A DNA stretch of 64,000 nucleotides from an uncultured Nitrospirota bacterium (lineage in GTDB: Bacteria > CG2-30-53-67), in contig CAMYMF010000008.1 of assembly GCA_947259355.1 (NCBI GenBank), positions 1 to 64,000 on the forward strand, in the 5' to 3' direction. The translations under genes and the position numbers were made by a program. Shown piece by piece: positions 4,365-43,085 of the stretch; positions within the stretch are counted from its first letter, which is position 1; the number at the start of each line of letters is the position of its first letter. The notes below the pieces were generated by a model, which did no database searches, was not told the DNA's origin, and worked only from the letters and a program-made list of their open reading frames with translations.

Positions 4365-4413
4365 CCCCCTGCGTGCTCCCTTGTGAAACCCCCTCTATCC
4401 CCCTCGCGCAGCG

Positions 4414-4470
4414 CCACCCCTTACAAGGGGGTGGACAAATAAGACGGACTGTGCCATGTTTGGTGGCACA
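4414..4470 (+). terminator. Two consecutive hairpins between cheV and larE
   Basis: Arms 4414-4422 and 4426-4434 (CCACCCCTT/AGGGGGTGG) form a nine-pair stem with a three-base loop, including one G-T pair. Arms 4450-4456 and 4464-4470 (TGTGCCA/TGGCACA) form a second, seven-pair stem. The first is probably the cheV terminator, although no long T-run follows. The second lies 38 bases before the larE start and could belong to its leader. Confidence 0.45.
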
Positions 4471-4507
4471 CCATTGGATCCGAGACGTCAGGAAACGGGG
4501 GTTTTCC

Positions 4508-5332
4508 ATGCACCCAAAATTAGCCCACTTACAGAAGATCCTCAGGGAGATGGAGTCCGTGCTGGTTGCCTTCTCGGGCGGCGTCGATAGCAGTTTTCTG
4601 CTGCGGGTTTCCAGAGACACCCTGGGCGACAAGGCTGCGGCCTTGACGGCCCTTTCCCCGACTTATCCGGAGCATGAACTGCGGGCCGCAAAGCAATTCA
4701 CTGCGGACTTGGGGGTCACACACATTCTCGTGGAGTCGAATGAACTCAAGATTGAGAACTTCGCACAGAACGACCCTCGCCGGTGCTACTATTGCAAAAG
4801 CGAACTCTTCGGGATTCTTCGCCAGGAGGCGGACCAGCGCGGGTTCAAGACCCTGTGCGACGGTTCCAACGTGGACGACAGGGGGGATTTCAGGCCGGGC
4901 ATGCAGGCAGCCCAGGAGAAGGGAGTGCGTCACCCGCTCATTGAGGCTGGTCTGTCCAAAGAAGAGATCCGTGGGTTGAGCCGGGAACTCGGTCTGGAAA
5001 CCTATCAGAAGGGCTCCATGGCCTGTCTCTCGTCCCGTTTCCCCTATGGTACCGAGATCACCGAATCCCGCGTCCGCCAAGTGGCCCGGTGTGAAGCGCT
5101 GCTTCGCGCCATGGGGTACGATCCTTACCGCGTCCGCTATCATGGTGACATCGCACGCATAGAAATACAACGAACGGACTTCGACAGATTGCTCGAAAAA
5201 GACCACCTCGATCGGGTGATCGAAGCCTTCAAGCAGGCGGGGTTTGTCTACGTGACGCTGGATCTGGAAGGGTTCCGAAGCGGCAGCATGAATGAGGTTC
5301 TGCCTCTGTCTCAGAGATCACGGACGAAATAA
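4508..5332 (+). CDS. larE: ATP-dependent sacrificial sulfur transferase LarE
   Basis: The PP-loop ATP-pyrophosphatase signature FSGGVDSSFLL lies at residues 22-32. The 274-residue length and the later motifs RRCYYCKSELF (residues 91-101) and MACLSSRFPYG (Cys173) fit LarE. LarE adenylates the nickel-pincer nucleotide precursor and donates sulfur to it. Cys173 corresponds by position to the sacrificial cysteine of Lactobacillus plantarum LarE (from memory). The start MHPKLAHLQK was chosen because homology begins there. Genes for LarB, LarC or lactate racemase are not in this window, so the cofactor's client is unknown. Stand-alone larE-type genes are common and some may serve other sulfur insertions. 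Confidence 0.88.
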   Translation: MHPKLAHLQKILREMESVLVAFSGGVDSSFLLRVSRDTLGDKAAALTALSPTYPEHELRAAKQFTADLGVTHILVESNELKIENFAQNDPRRCYYCKSELFGILRQEADQRGFKTLCDGSNVDDRGDFRPGMQAAQEKGVRHPLIEAGLSKEEIRGLSRELGLETYQKGSMACLSSRFPYGTEITESRVRQVARCEALLRAMGYDPYRVRYHGDIARIEIQRTDFDRLLEKDHLDRVIEAFKQAGFVYVTLDLEGFRSGSMNEVLPLSQRSRTK

Positions 5333-5402: not shown

Positions 5403-6926
5403 TCAGGAAGGGGCCTCGGCCTTTTCTTTCTCTTCCTCGGCTTCACCGATCTTCTCCTCGACAATCTCTTTGCCGTCGAAGCCGACTCGGACCTCGTCTT
5501 CCCCCACGATCGTTTCCAGATGAACCGGGCGCCGCCAGATACTCTGAAGGTTCTTCAGGGTATCCCGGGCATAATCCTGTTTGAGACCGACCCCTTCGTG
5601 CTGATGTTTGAGCAGCAGCTCTCCCCGATTCCGATAGTTGCCATTCACAACGTAAATAAGAGGCTGCCCGAAGTTAGTCAGACTGAAGAGGAGCTTCGCT
5701 TTCACCTTGCGGTAATCGCGGTCGGCAATTTCGTACATTCCCGTCTGCGAGTTGAAACGATAGGTGAACAGTTTGTGTTTCTCGCAGAATTCTTCGGTTA
5801 GAAAGGTGTCAATGAAAGTAATGTCGTTGTAGATCTTACGGACTTCGAAGATCTTCTCCCGGCCCAGCCCGAGTTGAAGATCCCATTTCTTCTTCTCAGC
5901 AATGTTGTCGCACTCCTCATATTCTTTCCCGAAGCGCCCCTTGTTCCATCTCTCCTCGATATCCCGAAACAGCTCCAGACCCACCTTGTAGGGATTGATA
6001 ACGCCGGGTCTCGTGCCCAGCGTTCCCGAATGGTGGTCGGCGTAATCAATGAGTTCCGAATCCTTCAGGCATTTTTGGGTCATGATGGTGGAGTGCCAGA
6101 ATGTGGCCCACCCTTCGTTCATAATCTTGGTCTGCGCCTGAGGGGCAAAGTAGTAACTCTCCTCGCGAATCAGTGAGAGGATGTCGCGCTCCCAGTTCTC
6201 CAGGGGGGAGTGCTCTATCAGAAATCGCAGGACGTCTTTTTGCGGCGTCTCGGGGAACTGTTTCTTCTTCTCCATGGCCTCCTGGAGCCTGCGTATTTCC
6301 GCATCGATAGCCTCCTGGGGATTGATGAAATCGTTCATGTAGTCTTTGCTCTTGAATCTCTTGGCCCGCAGCGGAATTTCTTCTTCTCCATTGAGCGCAC
6401 GGCTGGTCTGCTTCCCCTTGCGCTGTATAAAGGGCGCATGGTAGTCAATCAGGTTCTCGATCGACAGACTGGCATCGATAAACGCCTCAACCTTCTCCAG
6501 ACCGTAGCGTTCTATGTAGCGCTGAATCCGCACACCATGGTTGGCCATCTCATCCACCATCTTGCGGTTGGTCTTGGAAAACCAGACATTGTTCTTGAAG
6601 AAATCACAATGCCCATAGACATGGGCCATGACTATCTTCTGGTCGACCAGCTGATTGGCACTCAGCAGATAGGCGTAACAGGGGTCATTGTTAATGACCA
6701 TTTCGTAGATCTTTTGTAGGCCGTATTTGTAACCCTTGCTGAGACGGTCATACTCCATCCCGAAACGCCAGTGGGGGTAGCGGGTCGGGAACCCCCCATA
6801 GGCGGCCACTTCATTGATTCCCTTGAAATCGAGAATATGGAAAATAACCTCGAAGAAATCAAGCCCGTAGGCCGCAGCGTGTCCACGAATTTCTTCTCTG
6901 ATCTCGCTCAAATCCGGCGGAAGCAT
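5403..6926 (-). CDS. SpoVR/YcgB family protein
   Basis: This 507-residue protein matches the SpoVR family throughout: a Y-G-L-D-F-F-E-V start, the block FGMEYDRLSKGYKYGLQKIYEMVINN (quoted in part, residues ~56-80), MAHVYGHCDFFKNN (~100-113) and the late NEGWATFWH motif. SpoVR is needed for spore cortex formation in Bacillus. In non-sporulating proteobacteria its homologue YcgB has an unclear stress role. It is the third gene of a prkA-yeaH-spoVR operon; its ATG overlaps the stop of the preceding gene (TAATG), which indicates coupled translation. The C-terminal 25 residues are Glu/Lys-rich. Nothing in the window suggests sporulation. Confidence 0.93.
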   Translation of the reverse strand: MLPPDLSEIREEIRGHAAAYGLDFFEVIFHILDFKGINEVAAYGGFPTRYPHWRFGMEYDRLSKGYKYGLQKIYEMVINNDPCYAYLLSANQLVDQKIVMAHVYGHCDFFKNNVWFSKTNRKMVDEMANHGVRIQRYIERYGLEKVEAFIDASLSIENLIDYHAPFIQRKGKQTSRALNGEEEIPLRAKRFKSKDYMNDFINPQEAIDAEIRRLQEAMEKKKQFPETPQKDVLRFLIEHSPLENWERDILSLIREESYYFAPQAQTKIMNEGWATFWHSTIMTQKCLKDSELIDYADHHSGTLGTRPGVINPYKVGLELFRDIEERWNKGRFGKEYEECDNIAEKKKWDLQLGLGREKIFEVRKIYNDITFIDTFLTEEFCEKHKLFTYRFNSQTGMYEIADRDYRKVKAKLLFSLTNFGQPLIYVVNGNYRNRGELLLKHQHEGVGLKQDYARDTLKNLQSIWRRPVHLETIVGEDEVRVGFDGKEIVEEKIGEAEEEKEKAEAPS

Positions 6927-8032
6927 TACCGCCCCTTTCCAAGAAAGTCCTTGATGGACCGTAGAATATCGTCCTTGCCGTTTATCTCGGAGGTCACGAG
7001 TATTTCCTCCTCCGAGAGATGCTGATTCAAATCCTTGATGAACTGCCCGCTCCCATAATGGCTCTTCACCTGGCCATAGGAGAACTGATTGGACACTGGA
7101 AAGAGCTCTTCCTTGAGCAGTTTCATGCAGCGGGCCGTGTCACCGCCGCTCCAATTGTCCCCATCAGAGAAGTGAAAGGGATAAATGTTCCAATCTTCGG
7201 GGCTGTACTCCTGCTTGATAATTCGGCTGCACAATTCGTAGGCCGAAGAGATCACAGTCCCTCCGCTCTCACGGGTGTGGTAGAAGGTTTCCTTGTCCAC
7301 TTCCCGGGCCGTGGCATCGTGAATGATATAGCGGATTTTAAGCCCATCATACTGGGAGCGCAGCCATGTCTCGATCCAGAAGCTCTCAATGCGAACCAGC
7401 TCCTTCTGTTCATCACCCATGGAGCCCGACACATCCATCATGTAAACAATGACTGCGTTGCTTTCGGGATGCTGCTGCTCCTTCCAGGCCCGGAACCTCT
7501 TGTCCTCCCGTACTGGAATGATCACGGGGCGCTCATGGTTGTATGTGCCCGAAACAATCTGCCGTTTGAGAGCCTCCCGGTAGGTCCGCTTGAAATGGCG
7601 TAGAGACTCGGGGCCCACTCTGCGGATTCCGGTGTAACGTCCTTTTTCGGAAATGATATTCTTTTTTCCGCGGGGTTCTATGCGGGGAAGTTCCAGTTCT
7701 TCACCCAGGATTTCGGCCAGCTCCTCGATGCTGACCTCCACCTCCAGGAGGTGCTCTCCCGGTTGGTTGCCGGCTTCACCGGAGCCGCCGTCCTGATCCC
7801 CCGATCCAATGGGAGTTCCCGGAGGACCATCACCCTGACCGACGCCACCGACTTCTTTTTGTCCGTATTTGAAATGGGGAAGGTCGATCTGAGGGACGGG
7901 GATACTGACAAGTTCCTTCCCCCGTCTCCCGATCATTTCCGTGTGGCTGATATATTTCTTGAGGTTCTTCCGGATCGTACCCTTTACAATCTGCCGGAAC
8001 CTGCTGTGATCCTTCTCAATTTTGATGACCAT
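6926..8032 (-). CDS. YeaH/DUF444 family VWA-like protein
   Basis: The protein has 368 residues and belongs to the UPF0229/DUF444 family, whose E. coli member YeaH is encoded beside the kinase YeaG. The N-terminus ([20 protein letters not shown]) and a Gly-rich linker (residues ~60-95) are typical. A von Willebrand-type metal site is intact as D200-x-S202-x-S204 in [12 protein letters not shown]. The role is not established; the family is induced under nitrogen starvation and stationary phase with PrkA. It lies between prkA and spoVR on the same strand, with a 40-base gap to prkA and an overlap with spoVR. Confidence 0.92.
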
Positions 8033-8072
8033 CGCTGCTCAAAACTCCGGCCCGTCAGACACGTGTCTGCTT

Positions 8073-10133
8073 TCAGCTCTTCACATCGCCCCGTGCGAAA
8101 ATACTGGCCACAAAGTGCAAAACGTCCGTCGCACAGACGTCGCAATAGCCGTAGTTCCGGATCAGCCGGCTCTTGACCACATCGATTTTCTCCTGCGTTT
8201 TGTCGTCAACCACCGCCGTGGAAACCAGGCTGGTCAGCTTGATCGTGTCCTTCTGATCCTCGAAAAGTTTCAGCTCCAAAGCCTTTTGAAGTCTTTCATT
8301 GGTCTTGTAGTAAAACTTCTTTCCTTCGACGGCGAGGGCGCCGATATAATTCATGATTTCACTGCGGAAATCGTCTTTCCGGCTTTCAGGAATTTCTATC
8401 TTCTCCTCAATGGCCCGCATCAGCCGCTCATCGGGCTCTTCGTCTTCACCGGTGTACTTATTCTTCACCTTTTCCTTCTGGGTGTAAGCTTTAACATTGT
8501 CAATATAGTTGGCGCACAACTTGGCAATGGACTCTTCGTCGGCCGATATGGCGCGCTGCACATCATTCTTGACGATATTTTCGTATTCTTCGCGGGACAT
8601 GGCGAGAAGTTCCCGATAGCGCTTTCGCATGTCATCACTGCTGATGAGCGAGTGATGGGCCAGCCCCCCTTCCAGCTCCTTCATGACCATGAAAGGATTG
8701 ATACATCCTTCGTGCTTGTCGCTCACCAACGCATTGGATATCTTGTCCTGTATGTAGCGGGGAGAGATTCCTTCCATGCCTTCTCGCTTTCCTTCCCGGC
8801 GCAACTCAAGGACGTTGTCCTCTGTGAATCCGGGAAGGGACTGGCCGTTGTAAAGTTTCAATTTTTGCATGAGCGTCAGTTGCGCCTTCTTGGGCTCCTC
8901 CAGCCGCGTCAGAATGGCCCACATGGCCGCAGTCTTGATGGTGTGCGGTGCAATGTGCACCTGCGGGATCTTCTCGGCGTTGAAGTCCTTTTCATAGATC
9001 TTCAGCTCGTCTTCCAGACGCGTGATGTAAGGAATGTCGATCTTGACAGTCCTGTCGCGCAGGGCTTCCATGAACTCGTTGTTCTGCAGCTTCTTATACT
9101 CCGGTGCATTGGTATGCCCGATGATGACTTCGTCGATATCGGTCTGAGGAAACTTCTTCGGCTTGATCTTGTGTTCCTGAGAGGCACCGAGCAGATCGTA
9201 GAGGAAAGCCACGTCCAATTTGAGCACTTCGATGAATTCAACCAGGCCGCGATTGGCAACATTGAATTCCCCGTCAAAGTTGAAGGCCCGGGGATCGGAA
9301 TCGGAACCGTATTCGGCAATCTTGCGGTAGTTGATATCCCCAGTCAGCTCCGTCGAATCCTGATTCTTCTCATCTTTCGGCTGAAAGGTGCCGATCCCGA
9401 TGCGATCTTTCTCGGAGAGCGCAATGCGGCGCACGTTGACATGTTTGATGACCTGCGTCCAATCCCCGTGGTGCCGAGCATTCAGTTCCCGATACATCTG
9501 GCGGCAGCTTGGACAGAGTTCCCCTTCAACAAAAACCCGCTCGTCCGGCGCCCGCCCGACGTTCAACTCCTGGAGCACCTTGGGACGCCAGTCCATGGGA
9601 ATCAAATGCAGGGGTTCCTCGTGCATGGGGCACACCAGTTCATCCCCCGCGCGGTTGTGCTGGTCCCCGTTATCGCCCACCGTCCAAGCGATGGTATACA
9701 GGGCACCCTCGTCGGTCTTGGAATAGGTTTCAAGACCCCGCTTCAGCAAACGAACGATCGTGCTCTTGGCACATCCCACCGGCCCGTGCAGAAGGAGCAC
9801 CCGGCGTTCCGTACCGTAGCGGCGGGCGGCGGATTTGAACACGTTGACCATCCGCATCAGCGGTCGCTCCAGGCCGAAGATCGCGTCGGAGCCGTTGCCG
9901 AAGGGATCGTCAAAGAACTTGTAACGCATCAGCTGTTGTTTGTTGTCTTCTACCGATTCCGTGCCATAGGAGAGGATCATGTCGTAGATTCGCTCGAAGG
10001 CACTGCGCGCCACCCTGGGGTTATCACGAACAATTGCAAGATAATCCTCAAAGGATCCCTCCCAGTGGAGGTTTTTGAATTGCGCTGTGTTCTGAAGGTC
10101 GCTTATCAGGGATATGATATTGTTTCCGGCCAT
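8073..10133 (-). CDS. prkA: Serine protein kinase PrkA (YeaG-type AAA+ kinase)
   Basis: The protein has 686 residues, typical for PrkA. The N-terminal AAA+ part contains Walker [10 protein letters not shown] at residues 117-125. The C-terminal part is the PrkA-specific region. PrkA-type proteins phosphorylate serine in client proteins, and an ATP-dependent protease activity has been reported for the Bacillus homologue. The gene heads the prkA-yeaH-spoVR operon, a widespread stress module. A sigma70-like promoter lies 74 bases upstream. A CxxC pair (LCPSCRQ, about residue 207) lies in the ATPase part. Confidence 0.95.
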
Positions 10134-29608: not shown

Positions 29609-30505
29609 TCACGCCGAATCCTGCCGAGCGGGTTTCTCCTCCGCGGCTTCCGGATTTCCCGGAGGAACGGGACACTTCTCCGAGCCCGGAGACTCTCTCA
29701 GATTGCCTCGCACCCAGCGAAAGCCGAAGAGCAGCAAAAAGAGGGCAGCGGCCAGCAGAACGATGGTGGCGCCCGAGGCGGTGTTAAAGCGATAGGAGAG
29801 CGACAGGCCGGCGATGGCCGACACGAGACCGATCACCACGGCTACGATCAGCACCTGCCGATAATGGGTGGTGACTTCGTAGGCCGCGGCGGCCGGGATG
29901 ACCAGCAGGGCCGAGACCAGAATGATGCCAACCACCTTCATGGAGATGACAATGGTCAGGGCCATCAAGGTGAGCAGAAGATAGTAGAGAAAGGTGACCG
30001 GAATGCCGCTCACCTGGGCCGACTCCTCGTCGAAGCTGATGAAGAGAAGCTCCTTGAAGAAGTAGAAAATGGCCCCCAGGACGAGAAGCCCCAGTCCCCC
30101 CACCACCCAGAGATCCTGACGGGTGACCGAGAGGATATTTCCGAACAGATAGCCGAAGAGATCGATATTGTAGCCGCTGGACAGACCAATGATCACAATG
30201 CCGAGGGCCATGGACGCCGCATAGAAGATCCCGATGGTCGTGTCTTCATGGAGCATTCCTTTGCGACTCACCACACCGATCATCCAGGCCGTCAAGACGG
30301 AAAAGATTACGGCCGAGAGGGTCGGACTGATGCCGAGCAATATTCCGAGGGCCACGCCGCCGAAGGCGGCATGCGAAATCCCGACCCCGATAAAGGAAAG
30401 ACGGTTCACCAGCACAAAAAAGGAGATGACCGAACAGATCACACTGACCAGAACGCCCGCGACAAAGGCGTTTTGCATGAAGCTGTAGGAGAGCAGCTCA
30501 GTCAT
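29609..30505 (-). CDS. Zinc/manganese ABC transporter permease (ZnuB/MntB family)
   Basis: The 298-residue membrane protein has about eight hydrophobic segments and the ABC-3 family marks: VNRLSFIGVGISHAAFGGVALG near residue 33 (quoted for location) and a DEESAQVSGIP-type cytoplasmic loop (~175) that contacts the ATPase. The N-terminus (MTELLSYSFMQNAFVAGVLV) is typical for ZnuB. The Pro/Glu-rich C-terminal tail is not conserved. It overlaps the 3' end of the ATPase gene by eight bases. With the ATPase and binding protein upstream it forms a complete importer. Confidence 0.93.
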   Translation of the reverse strand: MTELLSYSFMQNAFVAGVLVSVICSVISFFVLVNRLSFIGVGISHAAFGGVALGILLGISPTLSAVIFSVLTAWMIGVVSRKGMLHEDTTIGIFYAASMALGIVIIGLSSGYNIDLFGYLFGNILSVTRQDLWVVGGLGLLVLGAIFYFFKELLFISFDEESAQVSGIPVTFLYYLLLTLMALTIVISMKVVGIILVSALLVIPAAAAYEVTTHYRQVLIVAVVIGLVSAIAGLSLSYRFNTASGATIVLLAAALFLLLFGFRWVRGNLRESPGSEKCPVPPGNPEAAEEKPARQDSA

Positions 30506-31289
30506 GGTGCTTCCCGATCATCCGGTGCGGGATCTTGCCGTGCATGACCATTTCCACCTCCGAGCCGTAGAGTTTCTTGAAGACATCTTTCTTCAGAATC
30601 TCTTCGGGTCGGCCGTGCAGATGGAGGGTCCGGTTCAGACAGGCAATGGCGTCACAGTGAATCGGCACCACGCCGACATCGTGGGTGGCCATGAACACAG
30701 TGAGCGAATACGCCTCACGCAGCCGGTGCAGGAGCCGGTAAAAACTGTCCTGACCCGCCACATCCACCGCCGCCGTCGGCTCGTCCAGAATGAGCACCTT
30801 CGGCTCGGCACAGAGGGCCCGGGCGATGAAGACCCGCTGCTGCTCTCCGCCCGAGAGGGTGCCGATCAGCTGGCGCGCCACGTGCGCCATGCCGACTTCC
30901 TCCAGACAGGAGAGGGCCATCTCACGGTCCTTCTTTTTCGGCCGTCCGCCGAGGCCGATTTTACCGTATCGCCCCATGACCACCGTATCGAGCACCGAGA
31001 AGGGTGCCCCCCGCTGCACAGCGATCTTCTGGGGCACGTACCCCATGATCCACGCGCGGCTGTCCCCGGTCCCCAGGTGTCTGCCCTGAATCAGAATTTC
31101 ACCGCGCTCGGGACGAATCAACCCGAGCAGGGCCCGCAGCAAGGTGGTCTTCCCGCCGCCGTTGGGCCCGATGAGTCCGGTGAAAGTATTCTCGAGAATC
31201 TGGAGGTTGATCCGCTCGAGCACCGGACACCCACCAATTGAAACGTCCAGGTCCCGGACATCAATGATGATCTTTCTGTCGGATGTCAT
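30498..31289 (-). CDS. Zinc/manganese ABC transporter ATP-binding protein (ZnuC family)
   Basis: The 263-residue ATPase shows Walker A GPNGGGKTT, the Q-loop region GYVPQK, signature LSGGEQQR and Walker B VLILDEPT. The C-terminal His-containing tail (MVMHGKIPHRMIGKHHD) may bind metal, as in ZnuC. The start follows AAGGGGG at short spacing. It lies between the binding-protein and permease genes and overlaps the latter. Confidence 0.93.
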   Translation of the reverse strand: MTSDRKIIIDVRDLDVSIGGCPVLERINLQILENTFTGLIGPNGGGKTTLLRALLGLIRPERGEILIQGRHLGTGDSRAWIMGYVPQKIAVQRGAPFSVLDTVVMGRYGKIGLGGRPKKKDREMALSCLEEVGMAHVARQLIGTLSGGEQQRVFIARALCAEPKVLILDEPTAAVDVAGQDSFYRLLHRLREAYSLTVFMATHDVGVVPIHCDAIACLNRTLHLHGRPEEILKKDVFKKLYGSEVEMVMHGKIPHRMIGKHHD

Positions 31290-31349
31290 ATGCCCCCTTT
31301 GCACTGGCCGTGCCCCATTTCGACAACGATTTCCTGCGGCAGCGCTTCT

Positions 31350-32324
31350 CTACGGGGCCTGCATGCCCCGCCTCATCACGTCGAGATTGTAGCGCATCAG
31401 CTTGAGATAGGTTGAGCGCTCCTCCACATCGGGCGAGCCGATGGGATCGAGCGTCAGGACCTGGGCACCGACTTCCTTGGCCAGCACATGCGCAGCTTTC
31501 GGATTGAGCTGCGGTTCGGCAAAGACAACCTTTGCGCTGCTCTCCCGAACCTGGCGGACGATCTTCATCATTTCCACCGGCGTCGGTTCCCTCCCCGGAG
31601 ACGGCTCGATGACGCCCGCCTCGAACAACCCATAGCGCTCGGCAAAGTAGGTCCACGAGGGATGGATGGCCACAAACGATTTCCGGGCGAAACCGTTGAC
31701 GGCCTCCCGGATTTCCTCGTCGAGACCCTCCAGGTCGCCCAGATAGGCCGCCGCGTTCCGAAAATAAATCTCTCGATGATCGGGATCGAGCCCCGCCAGC
31801 GCGTCGCGGATGGCGCGGACCTGATGCATGGCAATTATCGGATCGAGCCAGATGTGGGGATTTCCCATCGCGTGGCCGTGGGCACCGTCATGCCCGGTCT
31901 CATGAATCACATCCACCCCTTCGGAGGTTTCGACCTCGATGAGATCCTCCCCTGCGCCGGCACGCGCGAGCTGGGCGGACCAGAACTCGAACCCGAGCCC
32001 GATCTGGACAAAGAGAACCGCGCCCCGGAAACGCGCGAGATCCCTTGGCGAGGGCGAGTAGACATGGGGGCTGGCCGCGGGCGGCAGGAGCGTGACGACT
32101 TCCACGCGATCGCCGCCAACGGCTCGGACGAAGTCAGCCAGCGGGTAGATGCTCGCCACCACCTTGATCCGATCGCCCGCAGTGGGTTCGGAGACCTTGG
32201 TGTTCGGCTGCTCACAGCCGCCGACAAGGACCATGAGAAACAGGCAGAAGAGTATCCGCGCACCCACGCGGTGCCGGTGGTTGGCTTCGTTCTCAGCTTC
32301 GTGGAGAAATGCCCTCGCCCTCAT
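31350..32324 (-). CDS. znuA: Zinc/manganese ABC transporter substrate-binding lipoprotein (ZnuA family)
   Basis: The 324-residue protein has a lipobox (LVGGC, Cys37), so it is probably lipid-anchored in the periplasm. Predicted metal ligands are His87 (SPHVYSPSPRDL), His in NPHIWLDP (~158), His near 222 (AIHPSWTYFAERYG) and an acidic residue near 295. A short His-rich loop (HDGAHGHAMGNPH) precedes the second ligand, the pattern of zinc rather than manganese binders. It is first in the operon. The start codon lies only about ten bases from a predicted -10 box, so the message may lack a leader. Confidence 0.92.
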   Translation of the reverse strand: MRARAFLHEAENEANHRHRVGARILFCLFLMVLVGGCEQPNTKVSEPTAGDRIKVVASIYPLADFVRAVGGDRVEVVTLLPPAASPHVYSPSPRDLARFRGAVLFVQIGLGFEFWSAQLARAGAGEDLIEVETSEGVDVIHETGHDGAHGHAMGNPHIWLDPIIAMHQVRAIRDALAGLDPDHREIYFRNAAAYLGDLEGLDEEIREAVNGFARKSFVAIHPSWTYFAERYGLFEAGVIEPSPGREPTPVEMMKIVRQVRESSAKVVFAEPQLNPKAAHVLAKEVGAQVLTLDPIGSPDVEERSTYLKLMRYNLDVMRRGMQAP

Positions 32325-35269: not shown

Positions 35270-36139
35270 CTAGAACGCCATCTCGCACCCGACCGTGCAG
35301 TACTCAAACTGCTCCGGCATCTGCAGCGACACCTGCTTCATCGCCTCGAATCCCGAGCAGTGAATCGGGATGACCTTCTTGATCTTGAGTTTTCGAAACG
35401 CTTCGATGGTCCGGTCGATTTTCTTCTCCGCCGGTCCGATGAGATGAAAACCACCGATGACACAATAGACCTCGTCTACGCCGGTGACCTCTTTCGCGGC
35501 CTCGATGGTGTTGATGATGCCAGCGTGGCTGCAGCCCTGGATGACCACCAGTCCCTTTTCCGTGTTGATGACGACACCCATATCATCCTTCAGCTTGTCC
35601 TCGACCAGGGCATCGCCCTCTTTCCGCTTGAAAACCTTCAACTCCTCCCAGTCGTGGTTGCGCCTCACCTCGCCGGTGGTCATGACACCCTCGGCCAGTT
35701 TCACCGGCTCTGTGTGAAACTCTATCTTATGTTTCTTGGGGTCCGGCGGAGGACTGGTTAAATTGAATTTGACTCCCTCCTTGGGTGAGAGGTACCGCTC
35801 GTGAAAGGAATCGGGATGCACGATGACTCTGCCCTTGACTCTATCCAATCCGCCGGTATGATCATTGTGGCCGTGGGAGAAAACGACGACATCGATATCG
35901 TCCATGTTCAAGCCGAGGAGTTTCAGATTATGCTCCATGGGGATTCCTGTGACCCCGGTGTCGACAAGCACCTTGGCCTCATCGGTCTCAATGAGCGCTG
36001 AGAAACCGTGCTCGGCAAGGAAATTCTTCTGTGGACCGGAGCGTCGTTTCACCAATTCGCTGTCCGGAATCAGCTCCATAATCGTGTTGTCCACCAATAT
36101 GGTCAGCTTCGCTTTGACGGGTGCCAGTTTTTCAGCCAT
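35270..36139 (-). CDS. MBL-fold hydrolase, COG1237 (dihydropterin RFA-P synthase-like)
   Basis: The 289-residue protein begins with KLTILVDNTI and continues with HGFSALIETDEAKVLVDTG. The metal motif is FSHGHNDHTGGL (residues ~88-99). Later motifs are GCSHAGIIN and the C-terminal HCSGFEA. This matches COG1237, whose characterised relatives make a methanopterin-precursor or act on pterin-like substrates. Function here is unknown. It is the last gene of the nine-gene co-directional cluster, 125 bases after the VWA gene. Confidence 0.85.
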   Translation of the reverse strand: MAEKLAPVKAKLTILVDNTIMELIPDSELVKRRSGPQKNFLAEHGFSALIETDEAKVLVDTGVTGIPMEHNLKLLGLNMDDIDVVVFSHGHNDHTGGLDRVKGRVIVHPDSFHERYLSPKEGVKFNLTSPPPDPKKHKIEFHTEPVKLAEGVMTTGEVRRNHDWEELKVFKRKEGDALVEDKLKDDMGVVINTEKGLVVIQGCSHAGIINTIEAAKEVTGVDEVYCVIGGFHLIGPAEKKIDRTIEAFRKLKIKKVIPIHCSGFEAMKQVSLQMPEQFEYCTVGCEMAF

Positions 36140-36264
36140 TTCCTTATCCTCCGAAAAAAAATTACAGGGCGATTCTTCGCTGCCGCGGCAATACGGGAGA
36201 ACCGCCCCATCTTGTCAACCCTCGCCGGACCATGTCCCCCCGGGCGCTTCCCGGCAATCGCCCA

Positions 36265-37629
36265 TTACCGTTCGAGCGATGTGTAGTCCTTCAACATCTG
36301 ATTCATCAGATCCTCCGCGTTCACCAGGCTGAAAGATCCCCTGCCTACTTCCGCAATCCCCATGGCCTGCTCGAAACTGGCCTCTTCCAGATCGTCCCGA
36401 ATACAGATGACCGAGACGGTAATGCCTGCTTTTCTCATTCGTTCCGTTTGTGCGATGATGGCATCTCCCAGATCCCGCCGGGTGCGCGTGGCATCCAGAC
36501 TCGTCGGCACCCCATCGGTGATGACGATGACATGGGTGACGCCTCCCCCCGCGGAGCGCCGTGTGACGGCTGCTGCCTTTCTCAGCGCATCGGCGATGTT
36601 CGTCTCGTTCTTGGGTCTCAGCAACACGATTCGGCTGAGCAAGTATCCGTAGTTGCGACTCAAGGGCGACAGGATGACCGCCTCGTCCGAAAAGCCAATG
36701 AATGCCACCTGGTCCCGTTTGCCGGCGGCCGCGTAGATCAGCCCGGCAGCGGCCTCTTTAGCATACTGTAGTTTTTTGCTCCGCGCCATCGACCAGGAAT
36801 GATCGACCGCCAATACGAGGCGAAACTTTTTGGAATGCGGAACGTCCTTGACGCGAAGATCCCCGGCACGCGCCTCGGACACGGGCCGCCCTCTCTTCAC
36901 AAGATGGCGCATGGTCCGCCGGGTGTGCACGTCCCTGTAACGGTCCCCCCGCCGATACGTCCGGCTGTCTGCAGAGACGGAGTCGCTCATGCGACGCCTG
37001 GACTGGGTGCGGGACAGTTGTTTTTCGATGTCTTTCAGAAGGCTCTTGAAGCGAACCCGGCTACCATAAGGCGTGAGCGTCACCCCCTCGGGGTCCATTC
37101 GAACCAGACCCCGCCCCTTCAGTTCTTCCAGTGCCCGCCGGTAGCGCTGATAATCGGGCCGTCCACGCGCATCCCGCGACAGTGCGAAGAGCCTCGGCGC
37201 TTCGGCCCGAAAGAGAGTATCCCGACTGATCCTGAAACAGGACTCGCTGGAGAGGTCCATCTCATAGGGCATGGAGTGGATCATGTCCCGCAGCGCGTCC
37301 AGCTCTTTGAGTACCTCCGGGATGCGCTCCGTCGGGATGACGGAAGGCTCGGCCTCGGCTGAAGAGTACCCCTGGGGGTCCAGGTACCCTGCAACCACCT
37401 CTTGGACGATTCTTTCGCGGTCGATGACCGAGTCGGAGACGAGTCGGTGGGGAAGCGTAATCATGGCCGAGGTGAGAACGGGGTTCTCCGCCCCGACCAA
37501 ATCGAGAGACACCATGGTTTCATACATGGCCAGCGCGGCCCGTGAGCCAATTCTGATCTTGGCGAAGGGGTATTTCCGCAGGCGCCCCACGACGCCGGCC
37601 GCGGCCACTCTGCACTGTTGCTCAGTCAT
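36265..37629 (-). CDS. VWA-domain protein (Mg-chelatase D / CoxE-like)
   Basis: The 454-residue product has an N-terminal helical region with no recognised motif and a basic linker (~205-250). A C-terminal von Willebrand A domain carries an intact MIDAS motif D276-x-S278-x-S280 (LVLAVDHSWSMA), the TNIADAL Thr loop and VIVITDGVP. Such proteins pair with MoxR/BchI-type ATPases to insert metals or remodel enzyme complexes. Here it follows the ATPase gene by 12 bases, so the two almost certainly act together. The target is unknown. Confidence 0.88.
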   Translation of the reverse strand: MTEQQCRVAAAGVVGRLRKYPFAKIRIGSRAALAMYETMVSLDLVGAENPVLTSAMITLPHRLVSDSVIDRERIVQEVVAGYLDPQGYSSAEAEPSVIPTERIPEVLKELDALRDMIHSMPYEMDLSSESCFRISRDTLFRAEAPRLFALSRDARGRPDYQRYRRALEELKGRGLVRMDPEGVTLTPYGSRVRFKSLLKDIEKQLSRTQSRRRMSDSVSADSRTYRRGDRYRDVHTRRTMRHLVKRGRPVSEARAGDLRVKDVPHSKKFRLVLAVDHSWSMARSKKLQYAKEAAAGLIYAAAGKRDQVAFIGFSDEAVILSPLSRNYGYLLSRIVLLRPKNETNIADALRKAAAVTRRSAGGGVTHVIVITDGVPTSLDATRTRRDLGDAIIAQTERMRKAGITVSVICIRDDLEEASFEQAMGIAEVGRGSFSLVNAEDLMNQMLKDYTSLER

Positions 37630-37641
37630 GCCATTTCCGGA

Positions 37642-38625
37642 TTAGAGCATCTCTTTCAGCTTGGTGATGTAGGCGCCCGTTTCTGCGTACTCATCGCCTG
37701 CCGCGCTCAGCGACAATCTGCCCGACAGGGCCACGTCCATCGCCGAACGGACATCCTCCAAGGAGGCTTCCTGCGCCCCTCGGAGCCCGGCAAAACTCTG
37801 GCAGAGTTCGTAGATGGCCAGTGTCGCCCGGGGGCTGGCTGCAAAGGCCACATCCTTGTCCTGCCGGGTCCGCTGACACGCGCGGACGATCCTGCGCGTG
37901 ATCTCGTCCGGCACCGCCACGACGCTGCGTCCATATTTCTCGAGTATGGCAAGCTCGTCTTCTTCCGTGGGGTAGGGAATCGTGACACGCTCCAGTCTGT
38001 CCTTAAGCGCCTCCGACAGTGTTTCGATCCCGGCAAGCTCCGATTCGTTCATGGTAGAGATAAAGAGGGTATCTATCTGGAAGTGAACGTCGAAGTTTCC
38101 GATGGTCATTTCGCCTTCCTGCAACACCTGCAGAAGCGTATTTTGAATCTTCTCGGACATCCGGTTGATCTCGTCCACAAAAAGCACCTGTCTGTTGGCT
38201 TTGATGATCCTGCCGGGCGAGAAGACTCTCAGATCAAACCCGCCGTATCGCATGGCCAGCACCGGGTCGATATCCCCGACCAGGTCCTCTGCGCTCAACT
38301 CGGGACTTCCCTGAACCCGGACAAAGCGTTTCGCGCCGTGGACGGTGACAACGGCTCGACTCCCTGCGCGGCACTGGGGACAATCGGCACGCTCGGGATC
38401 GCAGTTGAAACTGCAGTCGTTGGCCTGTATATCCGGAAGAGAGCCGGCCACGGACTTGGCCAGCAATGTCTTACCAACGCCCGGGGGCCCTTCCAAGAGA
38501 AGATTCCGACCCGCCAGCAGGACGGCCAACACCTCTTTTTTCTTGCCGTCGCTACCGATCCACGGATCGAGAATGCCCAAGCCGCGCTCGGCAATGACCT
38601 CCCTTATTTCCGATACCATGCCCAT
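37642..38625 (-). CDS. MoxR/BchI-type AAA+ ATPase with a four-cysteine insert
   Basis: The 327-residue product has Walker A EGPPGVGKT (~45-53), Walker B VLFVDEINRM (~145-155), the sensor region FISTMNESELAG and a lid domain at the C-terminus. Right after the Walker A helix comes an insert with Cys71, Cys75, Cys82 and Cys85 (CSFNCDPERADCPQC), a likely zinc or iron-sulfur site absent from most MoxR proteins but similar to BchI-like ATPases of anaerobes (from memory). The start at 38625 follows GAGG. It is paired with the VWA gene downstream and lies 87 bases after the ferredoxin-carbonic anhydrase gene. Confidence 0.88.
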   Translation of the reverse strand: MGMVSEIREVIAERGLGILDPWIGSDGKKKEVLAVLLAGRNLLLEGPPGVGKTLLAKSVAGSLPDIQANDCSFNCDPERADCPQCRAGSRAVVTVHGAKRFVRVQGSPELSAEDLVGDIDPVLAMRYGGFDLRVFSPGRIIKANRQVLFVDEINRMSEKIQNTLLQVLQEGEMTIGNFDVHFQIDTLFISTMNESELAGIETLSEALKDRLERVTIPYPTEEDELAILEKYGRSVVAVPDEITRRIVRACQRTRQDKDVAFAASPRATLAIYELCQSFAGLRGAQEASLEDVRSAMDVALSGRLSLSAAGDEYAETGAYITKLKEML

Positions 38626-38712
38626 TTCACATGCCTCTGTTCCACGACCGTCCGCGGATAATCTATCACGGGGACGCGTCATCACAACAGCCCGCCGGAG
38701 AACCAACCAGCA

Positions 38713-39495
38713 CTACTCGGCATTTTCGATCGGTCCAAACAATCGGAAAATGTGACCATTGTACTCATCGTACATCAGGCCGGTGATCGGCATTTCCAAC
38801 GGTATCAGCTTCGATTCCCGGAGGATATCGGCCTGCTTTTTGAGACTGGTCTGCGGATCGGAGGAGAGCTGGAGCCATTTCTTGAACGGCCGGCCGAACA
38901 TGTCGCGCCCGTCCGTTTCCATTCGCGTCGCCGCCACTTTCTTGAGTTCTTTGGTGTTGAGGACGCGCATGCCGCACAGGCGGTGCCCGATGAGAATAAT
39001 CTCCTCGATGCCCAAGACTTCGGTGGCCAGAAAGAGCGACCGGATCACGCATTCCGTCGCAGCGGCGCCAGCGTTTCGCAGCACATAGGCATTGTCCCGA
39101 TTCTCCTGAAGTACTTCTTCCACATGCAGCTTGGAATCCAGGCAGGTCAGGATGGCGATTTTCTTGTTCGCGGCCTCCCGCAGGTTGAACTTCTGCTCTT
39201 CTGAGCGCTTCATCAGACCCGCGGGTTGCTTGGTCAGCATCCGCTTGCGCGCATCCTCCACATAGGCGGTCATGTTGATGGCCCCCCAGGTGCAGACCTC
39301 TTCGCACTTACCGCACCCGATGCATGCATCCGGATTGGACAGCCAGGGGATGCTGAAATCAGGATTCTCGGTCTCCCACATCTCCAGGCCATAGACCGGG
39401 CACGCACTGACGCAGTCCGCACAGGCCTCGCAATACTCGGGTATCACCCATGGCAATCGATCACTTTTCTTGGGTTTGGACTGCGAGTCATCCAT
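38713..39495 (-). CDS. Two-[4Fe-4S] ferredoxin fused to a beta-carbonic-anhydrase-like domain
   Basis: Residues 22-32 (CEACADCVSAC) and 58-68 (CIGCGKCEEVC) are two [4Fe-4S] motifs with the usual remote Pro or Thr. From residue 112 the text follows the beta-carbonic anhydrase pattern: ILTCLDSKL with Cys118 and Asp120, RNAG (140-143), and IGHRLCGM with His171 and Cys174, so all zinc ligands and the Asp are kept. The usual Arg after Asp-Ser is Lys122. The remaining 80 residues are unassigned. I know of no characterised enzyme with this fusion. A site joining electron transfer and CO2/bicarbonate or another zinc-bound ligand is plausible but inferred. The start at 39495 was chosen over 39519 because AAGGAG lies ten bases upstream. 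Confidence 0.82.
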   Translation of the reverse strand: MDDSQSKPKKSDRLPWVIPEYCEACADCVSACPVYGLEMWETENPDFSIPWLSNPDACIGCGKCEEVCTWGAINMTAYVEDARKRMLTKQPAGLMKRSEEQKFNLREAANKKIAILTCLDSKLHVEEVLQENRDNAYVLRNAGAAATECVIRSLFLATEVLGIEEIILIGHRLCGMRVLNTKELKKVAATRMETDGRDMFGRPFKKWLQLSSDPQTSLKKQADILRESKLIPLEMPITGLMYDEYNGHIFRLFGPIENAE

Positions 39496-39576
39496 GTGCT
39501 GCATGCTCCTTGAGAGCATCCCGCCCGAGCCGTGTAAATCCCCGCGGAAACGCTGCCGCTGCGGTACCCACCGCCA

Positions 39577-40263
39577 TCAAACCCAGAACTGCTCGTCCGG
39601 CGGCTGGGCAAAAGGCACGCCAATGGATTTGTCGGTCTTAAAAAAGTAGACGCCCGTCCGGCAAGCAATCCAGGCAAAGGTGAACAGCACCACCGTCAGA
39701 CGCAGGAGGGGCACCCAGAGTGGCGACTTCATCAGGATCGTGACGACCGCAATGGCGCCGACGAGGATGGCGACGTGATTCAATATCAGCACGATCTTCT
39801 GATCGTTGGCCATTCTCGTCTCCATGCCGAGCTCGGCGGCTTTGGTGATGGTGGCGTAAAACATGGTCGTGGCCGCGTAAGCACACAGCCCGATGCACAG
39901 CACGGTCAGCGCTAACATGACGTAACTGCCGGGGCCGATCATGAAATGAAAGATGACGCTCAGCCCCGCCAAGGCGATGGCACTCCAGCCGCTGATCATG
40001 ACAATCTTATAATGCCATCCCATCTCCTCGATCGCGTGCGCGCAGGCGGCAAAGAGAAAGAGGGCCCCCACAAACGTGATAAAGGGGGGAAAGGCGTGAT
40101 TCGGTTGCCCCGCGATTTTCAACGCGTACTGTCCGACGAAATCGGGCATCCAGACCCCCAGAATGCATGGGATGGCTCCTATTTCCCAGAAACGAACACA
40201 TTTTGGCTTCATCCAACGGGGATTGATAAATCCCGACATCTGCTTCTTTTCAAGTACGGCCAT
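39577..40263 (-). CDS. Polytopic membrane protein of unknown function
   Basis: The 228-residue product has about six hydrophobic segments (for example near 28-42, 60-78, 88-106, 114-132, 155-175, 180-200). It has few charged residues in the membrane parts. The N-terminus (MKPKCVRFWEIGAIPCILGV) contains two Cys, and the C-terminus is hydrophilic (TDKSIGVPFAQPPDEQFWV). No haem or metal motif is clear, though several His (for example in CAHAIEEMGWHYK and FHFMIG) face membrane edges. It lies between split-barrel flavoprotein genes and the ferredoxin-fusion gene and could be their membrane partner. That is inference. Confidence 0.75.
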   Translation of the reverse strand: MAVLEKKQMSGFINPRWMKPKCVRFWEIGAIPCILGVWMPDFVGQYALKIAGQPNHAFPPFITFVGALFLFAACAHAIEEMGWHYKIVMISGWSAIALAGLSVIFHFMIGPGSYVMLALTVLCIGLCAYAATTMFYATITKAAELGMETRMANDQKIVLILNHVAILVGAIAVVTILMKSPLWVPLLRLTVVLFTFAWIACRTGVYFFKTDKSIGVPFAQPPDEQFWV

Positions 40264-40314
40264 CGTCTCATCTCCACAGTCTTTGGGTTAGAGATGTTGC
40301 GCGTCAGAATCGTC

Positions 40315-40725
40315 TTACTTGGGAGGGCCGATGTCTCGCCACCGACTCTCTTCAAACTTGACCACATGCTCGGGAGGTAAAACGTCCAGCCTGAGGGCCG
40401 CCTCCGGTCCCGGCTTCGTACAGTAAATCTCGGTGAGATCGACTTTGAGCGTGTTGCCCGATAGCGTTGCAGCCCCCTTGAACTGGTAGGCCGCGCGTAT
40501 GCTGGCTATGGCGTGCGGAGCCAAAGCCACGTAGGGATTTTCTTCCATGTTTCCTTTGATCTGATTTGCCTGTGCTTCCGTCAGTTGAAAAACCACGGTA
40601 CTGTCGCCCTCAATGCTCGCCTGTTCCACCACGATGGTCGTTGGAAAGCCTTTCTTCGTGGCTGTTCCGATGTGACAGCCGAATCGCTCCAGCCAACCTT
40701 TCATTCTCGGTGTCAGTGTCGCCAT
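40315..40725 (-). CDS. PNPOx-like FMN split-barrel protein, copy C
   Basis: The 136-residue protein has the pyridoxamine-phosphate-oxidase-like split-barrel pattern: GCHIGTATKKGFPTTIVVEQ early, then a core with NPYVALAPHAIAS and YQFKGAATLSG. The fold usually binds FMN or F420 as a homodimer. It is clearly diverged from the neighbouring copies A and B and lacks their EESGKKIL tail. Its partner and substrate are unknown. It lies 32 bases downstream of copy B and 51 bases upstream of the polytopic membrane-protein gene. Confidence 0.78.
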   Translation of the reverse strand: MATLTPRMKGWLERFGCHIGTATKKGFPTTIVVEQASIEGDSTVVFQLTEAQANQIKGNMEENPYVALAPHAIASIRAAYQFKGAATLSGNTLKVDLTEIYCTKPGPEAALRLDVLPPEHVVKFEESRWRDIGPPK

Positions 40726-40757
40726 GTTACACCCTCCCTATGCGCTATGACGTGAAG

Positions 40758-41237
40758 CTAAAGAATTTTCTTTCCGGACTCCTCGGGTTTCCAGCTGTAG
40801 ACCTCATCCACTTTTAATGTAATCACGCCCCGCTGGCACAGGGCAGGCGGCCGGATGTCGGGCGGAACCTCCGAAGGTGGCTCCTTGGCGGCCCAGTCAC
40901 CCCACTCCCGCAGTACCTCACCTGCCTTGGCGCCGTGAAAGTCGTCATCGTCCTCCGCCCCCCACATGATGATGGTGCACGGCCCCCGAAAGGCCCAGTA
41001 GCGTCCTTTGACCGGGTGCGCGACCGTGATCACTCCCCACGGGTTTTCGTTGAGGTTCACCTTGGTCTTTTGGGCAAACATATCTGCGATCACAATGTGC
41101 TCCTCGCCGAAGGCCGCCACAAACCGCTCACCCACCGTGTTGGGAACCCCGTCGGCGCTGCAGGTTGTCAGATGCACCACCACGCCGCCGGAACCGATGG
41201 TTCTGAGTGCATTGAGCATCTCCTCGTTCATCTTCAT
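40758..41237 (-). CDS. PNPOx-like FMN split-barrel protein, copy B
   Basis: The 159-residue protein is collinear with copy A upstream. Shared blocks include LFAQKTKVNLNENP in the form MFAQKTKVNLNENPWGVITV, YWAFRGPCTII, GEVLREWGDW, QRGVITLKVDEVYSWK and an EESGKKIL end. The fold is a split-barrel flavin reductase-like domain. The match in both order and wording shows tandem duplication followed by divergence. GGAGTGGAT precedes the ATG. The gap from copy A is 14 bases. Confidence 0.82.
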   Translation of the reverse strand: MKMNEEMLNALRTIGSGGVVVHLTTCSADGVPNTVGERFVAAFGEEHIVIADMFAQKTKVNLNENPWGVITVAHPVKGRYWAFRGPCTIIMWGAEDDDDFHGAKAGEVLREWGDWAAKEPPSEVPPDIRPPALCQRGVITLKVDEVYSWKPEESGKKIL

Positions 41238-41251
41238 ATCCACTCCCCCCC

Positions 41252-41731
41252 TTAGAGAATCTTCTTGCCGGACTCCTCGGACTTGTAGCTGTAGACCTCC
41301 TCCACTTTGAGCACAATGACACCGCGTTGCCCCACGGCTTTCGGCTGGATGTCCGCATCCACGCTGTCCAACGCCTCGAGCTGGCCCCAGTCGCCCCATC
41401 TCTCCAAAACCTCGCCCGCAGTCACGCCCTGAAAGTTGAACTTCGGCGGGTGTCCCCATTGAATAATGTTGCAGGGGCCGCGAAAAGCCCACGTCATCCC
41501 TGCCTCAGGATTGGCGACGGTCATCACGCCCACCCTGTTTTCATTAATGTTAATCTTTGTCTTCTGGGCAAATAGATCGGGGGAAAAAATGAATTCGTCT
41601 TTGTAAACGTCGGTGTACGGCTGAAGATAGATGTTGCATTTGCCGGTGGTGTTCGAGGTCGTGAGGTATGTCACAACACTCCTGCTGCTCCCTGCCTTCA
41701 AAACCTCCTTCATCTCATCCGTCAGCTTCAT
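41252..41731 (-). CDS. PNPOx-like FMN split-barrel protein, copy A
   Basis: The 159-residue protein has the same length as copy B and shares LFAQKTKININEN, WAFRGPCNII, AGEVLERWGDW, QRGVIVLKVEEVYSYK and EESGKKIL. The split-barrel fold normally binds FMN between two subunits, so copies A and B may form a heterodimer (inference). The ATG at 41731 follows GAGGAGATCCCC; an upstream start at 41764 would run into the neighbour. Substrate unknown. Confidence 0.83.
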   Translation of the reverse strand: MKLTDEMKEVLKAGSSRSVVTYLTTSNTTGKCNIYLQPYTDVYKDEFIFSPDLFAQKTKININENRVGVMTVANPEAGMTWAFRGPCNIIQWGHPPKFNFQGVTAGEVLERWGDWGQLEALDSVDADIQPKAVGQRGVIVLKVEEVYSYKSEESGKKIL

Positions 41732-41742
41732 GGGGATCTCCT

Positions 41743-41991
41743 CTAAATGAAAGGCCGCTTGCACAGCTTGTTGATCGTCTTACCGGCACGTATCTGGTAA
41801 AAAACGAGGCCTGCGTTCACCAGGACAGCGAAGAGAACCACGGCAGTGCCGCCACCGATACGCAGCATCTCACCAATGGCGCGGATTACATTGGTATAAA
41901 TGAGGAGAATCGCGATGGCCGACACCGCGACGATGATGATGGTGCTTTTTTTTTCGACAGCTTCTGCTTGTTGGAAGGAATCGTCACTCAT
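41743..41991 (-). CDS. Small two-helix membrane protein
   Basis: The 82-residue product has two membrane segments (about 18-37, TIIIVAVSAIAILLIYTNVI, and 50-67, TAVVLFAVLVNAGLVFYQ) joined by a short loop with a Gly triplet. Both ends are hydrophilic: an acidic Gln-rich N-terminus and a basic tail KTINKLCKRPFI. It is first in the nine-gene cluster, 11 bases before copy A, with GGGGG upstream of the ATG. I do not recognise a family. Confidence 0.75.
   Translation of the reverse strand: MSDDSFQQAEAVEKKSTIIIVAVSAIAILLIYTNVIRAIGEMLRIGGGTAVVLFAVLVNAGLVFYQIRAGKTINKLCKRPFI

Positions 41992-43010: not shown

Positions 43011-43085
<75 letters not shown>

Follow-up and report, generated by a model that had tools for sequence, protein, structure and literature searches.

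The gene set of a nine-gene block in an uncultured Nitrospirota bacterium (positions 35270-41991, minus strand, of a 64,000-nucleotide window, the whole stretch of DNA that we analyzed) is conserved across genomes, and the block co-occurs with LarC2 and with P590, a protein of ~590 residues. We tentatively read the block as an accessory module, spread by horizontal transfer, of an anaerobic one-carbon system not yet described, with P590 as its central unknown. The same genes recur in the same order in a second small phylum and in 10 of 396 Nitrospirota genomes. A sequence-only reading of the window had suggested looking for the gene set as a conserved block, and these findings bear it out; that reading had pointed to Desulfobacterota as the place to search, but the named relatives are Nitrospirota-type genomes.

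Layout and conservation of the block

All nine co-directional minus-strand ORFs described in the sequence-only reading were present on re-examination:

41743..41991, minus strand: g1, small membrane protein of 82 amino acids, with same-position homologues in L050 (59%), L055 (52%) and the L060 locus
41252..41728, minus strand: g2, split-barrel flavoprotein-like protein A (PNPOx_N, E 1.3e-3), aligned with B and orthologues
40758..41243, minus strand: g3, split-barrel protein B, start at 41237 or 41243 (PNPOx_N, E 6.8e-9, and a fold match)
40315..40725, minus strand: g4, split-barrel protein C (PNPOx_N, E 1.3e-3), orthologues 58-83% identical
39577..40263, minus strand: g5, polytopic membrane protein of an unnamed family, with 10 orthologues and a helical model
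38713..39495, minus strand: g6 (FdCA), fusion of a 2[4Fe-4S] ferredoxin and a beta-carbonic-anhydrase (CA) domain (Fer4_7, E 3e-12; Pro_CA, E 3e-11)
37642..38625, minus strand: g7, ChlI-type AAA ATPase with a Cys4 insertion (N-terminal half of TIGR02442)
36265..37629, minus strand: g8, ChlD-type VWA protein with an intact MIDAS motif, DHSWS...T...D (C-terminal half of TIGR02442)
35270..36139, minus strand: g9, metallo-beta-lactamase-fold hydrolase (MBL) with HGHNDH (Lactamase_B, E 2e-14)

The genes are separated by 14, 8-14, 32, 51, 78-81, 87, 12 and 125 bases, the ranges being set by start-codon choice, and plausible ribosome-binding sites lie upstream of most of them; a scan for promoters and terminators returned results at chance level. 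Pfam and NCBIfam confirmed the three PNPOx-type split barrels, the 2[4Fe-4S]-beta-CA fusion and the AAA, VWA and MBL domains, and these matches fit the earlier description of the proteins as redox- and metal-related. Neither membrane protein, g1 or g5, matched a Pfam or NCBIfam family above cut-off. DUF2304, Cation_efflux and DUF3325, considered as families of the block membrane proteins, were rejected on Pfam scores below cut-off.

The predicted model of B (pLDDT 82) resembles FMN, F420 and heme split-barrel structures, with Foldseek E values of 2e-7 to 6e-5 against HupZ, Rv1155 and the Desulfovibrio FMN-binding protein, which places it in the split-barrel fold. By sequence, A, B and C would be expected to bind flavin. 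The model of g5 is a bundle of ~7 helices and nothing else, for which an uninformative fold search returned no PDB match. In FdCA, C119, D121, H172 and C175 are invariant among eight aligned sequences and position 123 is K or R; the Cys-His-Cys zinc ligands and Asp-Arg dyad of beta-CAs are thus in place, although the window protein has Lys for Arg. The closest PDB entries to the MBL protein are 2p4z and TM1679.

Gene set and order are kept in G341, G386 and G387, in loci L057-L060 and in eight further Nitrospirota genomes, the core genes being 50-87% identical (B 85-87% within the G341 family) and the VWA protein 40-48%. With three or more distant lineages sharing this order, the arrangement is not due to chance. 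As far as their contigs extend, the G341, G386 and G387 loci read g1-A-B-C-g5-FdCA-MBL, and in G386 FdCA and MBL flank the ATPase and VWA genes, which is the exact arrangement of the window. Directly after MBL come NuoE-like, NuoF-like and formate dehydrogenase-like genes in G341 and G387, and in G386 the contig ends after the first of these. A scan of named genomes added four genomes labeled Nitrospirota: three have GntR-B-C-FdCA-MBL (L059 being truncated 5′), and the fourth has sigma54 regulator-g1-A-B-C-g5-FdCA-MBL. The conserved order across C-g5-FdCA argues against a break at this junction, which had been proposed as a possible point of failure. An MBL gene lies within or next to the block at most loci.

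A second arrangement is found at eight Nitrospirota loci, which read GntR-A-B-C-g5-P590 with small rearrangements. On the longer contigs P590 is followed by P140-LarC2-LarE-LarB, a carbon monoxide dehydrogenase (CODH)-like gene, NuoEF with a C-terminal ferredoxin, DsrE and MBL, so that in these Nitrospirota blocks the ferredoxin domain is the C terminus of NuoEF. A separate beta-CA follows in L170, and the ATPase-VWA pair follows in L168. The block neighbor varies by lineage, being either an NAD-dependent formate dehydrogenase or a CODH-like protein that lacks the Cys295 loop.

The block is scattered among anaerobic bacteria. A and B homologues occur in ~2.5% of the Nitrospirota sample. Of 386 relatives, one, from a different phylum, has a full-length FdCA, and two more genomes of its family were then found to have it; a query of 60 relatives with FdCA returned ordinary ferredoxins and carbonic anhydrases only. 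B, FdCA and P590 were not found in G001-G007, the seven nearest sequenced relatives (genus, family and class neighbors of the window), an absence that fits horizontal transfer of the block. As its distribution is sporadic, a tRNA-Gly (ccc) gene ~1 kb upstream (window 43011-43085, minus strand) may be an integration site. Most genomes compared are metagenome assemblies, in which contig breaks hide genes. In the FdCA gene of G387 (L055 3438-4205), an in-frame TGA takes the place of a conserved Trp codon and the gene continues into a shortened MBL gene, reflecting either decay or an assembly error.

Elsewhere in the window, a zinc-type uptake operon (ZnuA, ABC-3 and ABC-ATPase; 29609-32324, minus strand) lies ~3 kb past the MBL end of the block, and one cluster holds SpoVR-family and PrkA-family genes (5403-10133, minus strand). 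LarE (TIGR00268, above cut-off) is encoded at 4373-5332 on the plus strand, ~30 kb from the block and without adjacent LarB or LarC.

P590 and its gene neighborhoods

P590 has no match in Pfam or NCBIfam, the LarA family included, and no credible relative in the PDB. It occurs in 10 of 396 Nitrospirota genomes, eight of them shared with A/B (hypergeometric p about 3e-14); G386 and G387 also encode it, and G408 and G409 have fragments of it. The window's own genome encodes it on another contig (C9; 72% identical). Fourteen P590 proteins have 99 invariant residues in common. Three genomes, G341 (estimated 100% complete), G407 and G410, keep the block but lack P590; the link between the two is thus not obligatory, and the block may also work with formate dehydrogenase only.

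In the window's genome (G000), P590 is encoded between LarC2 and an MtaA/CmuA-family protein; the same region holds MtrH, MtaA, a corrinoid protein, cysteate synthase and ComDE (sulfopyruvate decarboxylase). The order MtaA/CmuA-P590-LarC2 is kept in G387, with corrinoid genes nearby, and MtaA/CmuA-P590 in G386. Three genomes of another family (f26) have a second type of P590 together with LarC2, RACo, MtrH, MtaA and a corrinoid protein. Directly 3′ of this second type, two Nitrospirota encode an archaeal thermosome-like TCP-1/cpn60 chaperonin (L205 11422-13041 and L206 7919-9559). Archaeal-type coenzyme M synthesis genes (cysteate synthase and a fused ComDE) are found in a bacterial genome at L187 5888-8250.

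Within the window, genes for P590, formate dehydrogenase, CODH and Lar proteins are not adjacent to the block, the distant LarE excepted. The window's genome has an intact CODH and its own NuoEF and formate dehydrogenase genes on a contig other than that of the block. One region of this genome (L176) holds CODH, NuoE/F, formate dehydrogenase, CooC-like and formate-THF-ligase-like ORFs, a set consistent with the Wood-Ljungdahl pathway. The Cys295 loop of the C-cluster is kept in this CODH and deleted in all six CODH-like proteins examined. CODH-V, in which Cys295 is altered, carries a hybrid cluster and does not act on CO (PMC13240472), so the CODH-like proteins are unlikely to oxidize CO.

Possible roles of the block

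How might such a module work? We infer an electron path, a metal and a substrate for the P590 system as follows. Low-potential electrons from formate or NAD(P)H would enter the 2[4Fe-4S] domain, either free or fused to NuoEF, and move on to g5 and the three split-barrel proteins with FMN; from there they would reductively activate or drive a nickel/corrinoid methyl enzyme. The carbonic-anhydrase domain would interconvert CO2 and bicarbonate where CO2 is made or used, and the MBL enzyme may act on a small molecule of the pathway. Where present, the ATPase-VWA pair could carry out ATP-driven metal insertion or remodeling at the P590/Lar metal site rather than on the flavoproteins. A more specific version, which we consider possible but on the unlikely side, is that P590 represents a new class of nickel-dependent enzyme (with a pincer cofactor or protein-bound nickel, and distinct from LarA, MCR and CODH) in a corrinoid- and coenzyme M-linked bacterial methyl metabolism, for which the block would be the dedicated reductive-activation and CO2-handling module. 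Nickel binding is here a prediction from sequence.

The ATPase and VWA genes had been read as a MoxR/BchI-VWA pair. The AAA and VWA domains stand, but the MoxR assignment does not: g7 matches the N-terminal and g8 the C-terminal half of TIGR02442, a ChlI/ChlD-like "putative cobaltochelatase" (E 2.9e-24 and 9.5e-18), with 85.5 and 64.0 bits against a curated cut-off of 779.45. From these matches, g7 is better read as ChlI-like than as MoxR proper, and g8 as ChlD-like. Both carry the expected motifs: in g7, GPPGVGKT is invariant, Walker B (LFVDEIN) is kept with V/L and I/V changes, and C71, C75, C82 and C85 of the Cys4 insertion are invariant in three orthologues; in g8, the MIDAS residues D276, S278, S280, T343 and D372 are invariant. 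A first scan of genome contigs with the VWA protein found nothing. Orthologues of the ATPase were found in four of the 17 genomes with the block or its partner P590. Across 46 genomes the same count holds (G000, G386, G610 and G673) and all four carry P590, giving 4/13 P590-carrying genomes against 0/33 others (Fisher p 0.004). In three of the four, MBL follows the pair.

These distributions bear on the earlier proposal of a membrane redox complex whose ferredoxin-zinc protein or flavoproteins would be matured by the pair. The location of the pair in the window and in G386, with FdCA on one side and MBL on the other, would suit such a role. However, most genomes with FdCA or the flavoproteins lack the pair, so it is not a general maturase of these proteins; in G673 its neighbors are DsrE and MBL, and the contig has neither FdCA nor flavoprotein genes. 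We therefore consider this proposal very unlikely and reject the block as a MoxR-VWA system, the pair being optional. Slightly less probable still is a block that handles a sulfur-carbon compound, with a CA domain that hydrolyzes COS or CS2. The PDB relatives of the domain include the CS2 hydrolase 3ten and the COS hydrolase 3vqj, and several related loci carry DsrE, but classical beta-CAs score equally well or better and the window block has no sulfur pathway genes.

Of greater weight, though still unlikely, is the possibility that the block is an accessory set of NAD-dependent formate dehydrogenase, in which ferredoxin and CA couple CO2/bicarbonate to formate while the flavoproteins and MBL tune or protect the enzyme. 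This idea is favored by G341 and G387, where formate dehydrogenase genes come directly downstream, and by G386, where the first such gene does; yet none is adjacent in the window, in L057-L060 or at most Nitrospirota loci, and the copy in the window's genome sits with CODH on another contig. The CODH-like proteins suggest a different role, as a nitrosative or oxidative stress reductase whose iron-oxo hybrid cluster reduces NO or hydroxylamine with electrons from NuoEF, ferredoxin, the split barrels and MBL. The loss of the Cys295 loop in six of six proteins and the hybrid cluster of CODH-V agree with this role, which we nonetheless regard as improbable: FdCA-type blocks, including that of the window, have no CODH-like gene, and the Lar, corrinoid and coenzyme M neighbors would be left unexplained.

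Returning to the block as an accessory module of a P590 system, the absence of the P590 family from Pfam, NCBIfam and the PDB, together with its nickel-pincer, corrinoid and coenzyme M neighbors, suggests a bacterial one-carbon chemistry that is missing from pathway maps. The carriers are uncultured Nitrospirota and neighboring phyla, and the block provides a defined gene list for expression and testing.

Comparison with known systems

The sequence-only reading knew of no described system with this gene set, and our search of open-licence papers agrees: none was found there for the gene set, the ferredoxin-CA fusion, CODH with Lar genes or MoxR in Nitrospirota. Like NorQ-NorD, CbbQ-CbbO and CoxD-CoxE, the block has an AAA ATPase beside a VWA protein with an intact MIDAS; it differs in that the closest family is ChlI/ChlD cobaltochelatase-like, the pair is optional and the known client enzymes are not adjacent. 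The two proteins match the two halves of TIGR02442 and BchI-BchD, but as split genes with scores far under the curated cut-off, and no CobN/BchH-like large chelatase subunit is encoded within the block.

As in clusters of NAD-dependent formate dehydrogenase and Ni-CODH, genes for NuoE, NuoF and ferredoxin, together with formate dehydrogenase or CODH-like genes, border the block in relatives. However, the CODH-like protein lacks Cys295, and these genes are not next to the block in the window; surveys of CODH gene context do not mention a carbonic anhydrase partner (PMC6344411, PMC13056359). Corrinoid and coenzyme M methyltransferase systems (MtaA, MtrH, MtbC and RACo) neighbor P590 in G000, G387 and the f26 genomes, although P590 itself matches no substrate methyltransferase family in Pfam or NCBIfam. 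Finally, the nickel-pincer nucleotide (Lar) system is represented by LarB, LarE and LarC2 beside P590 in relatives and by LarC2 in the window's genome; P590 differs from this system in having no match to the LarA family.
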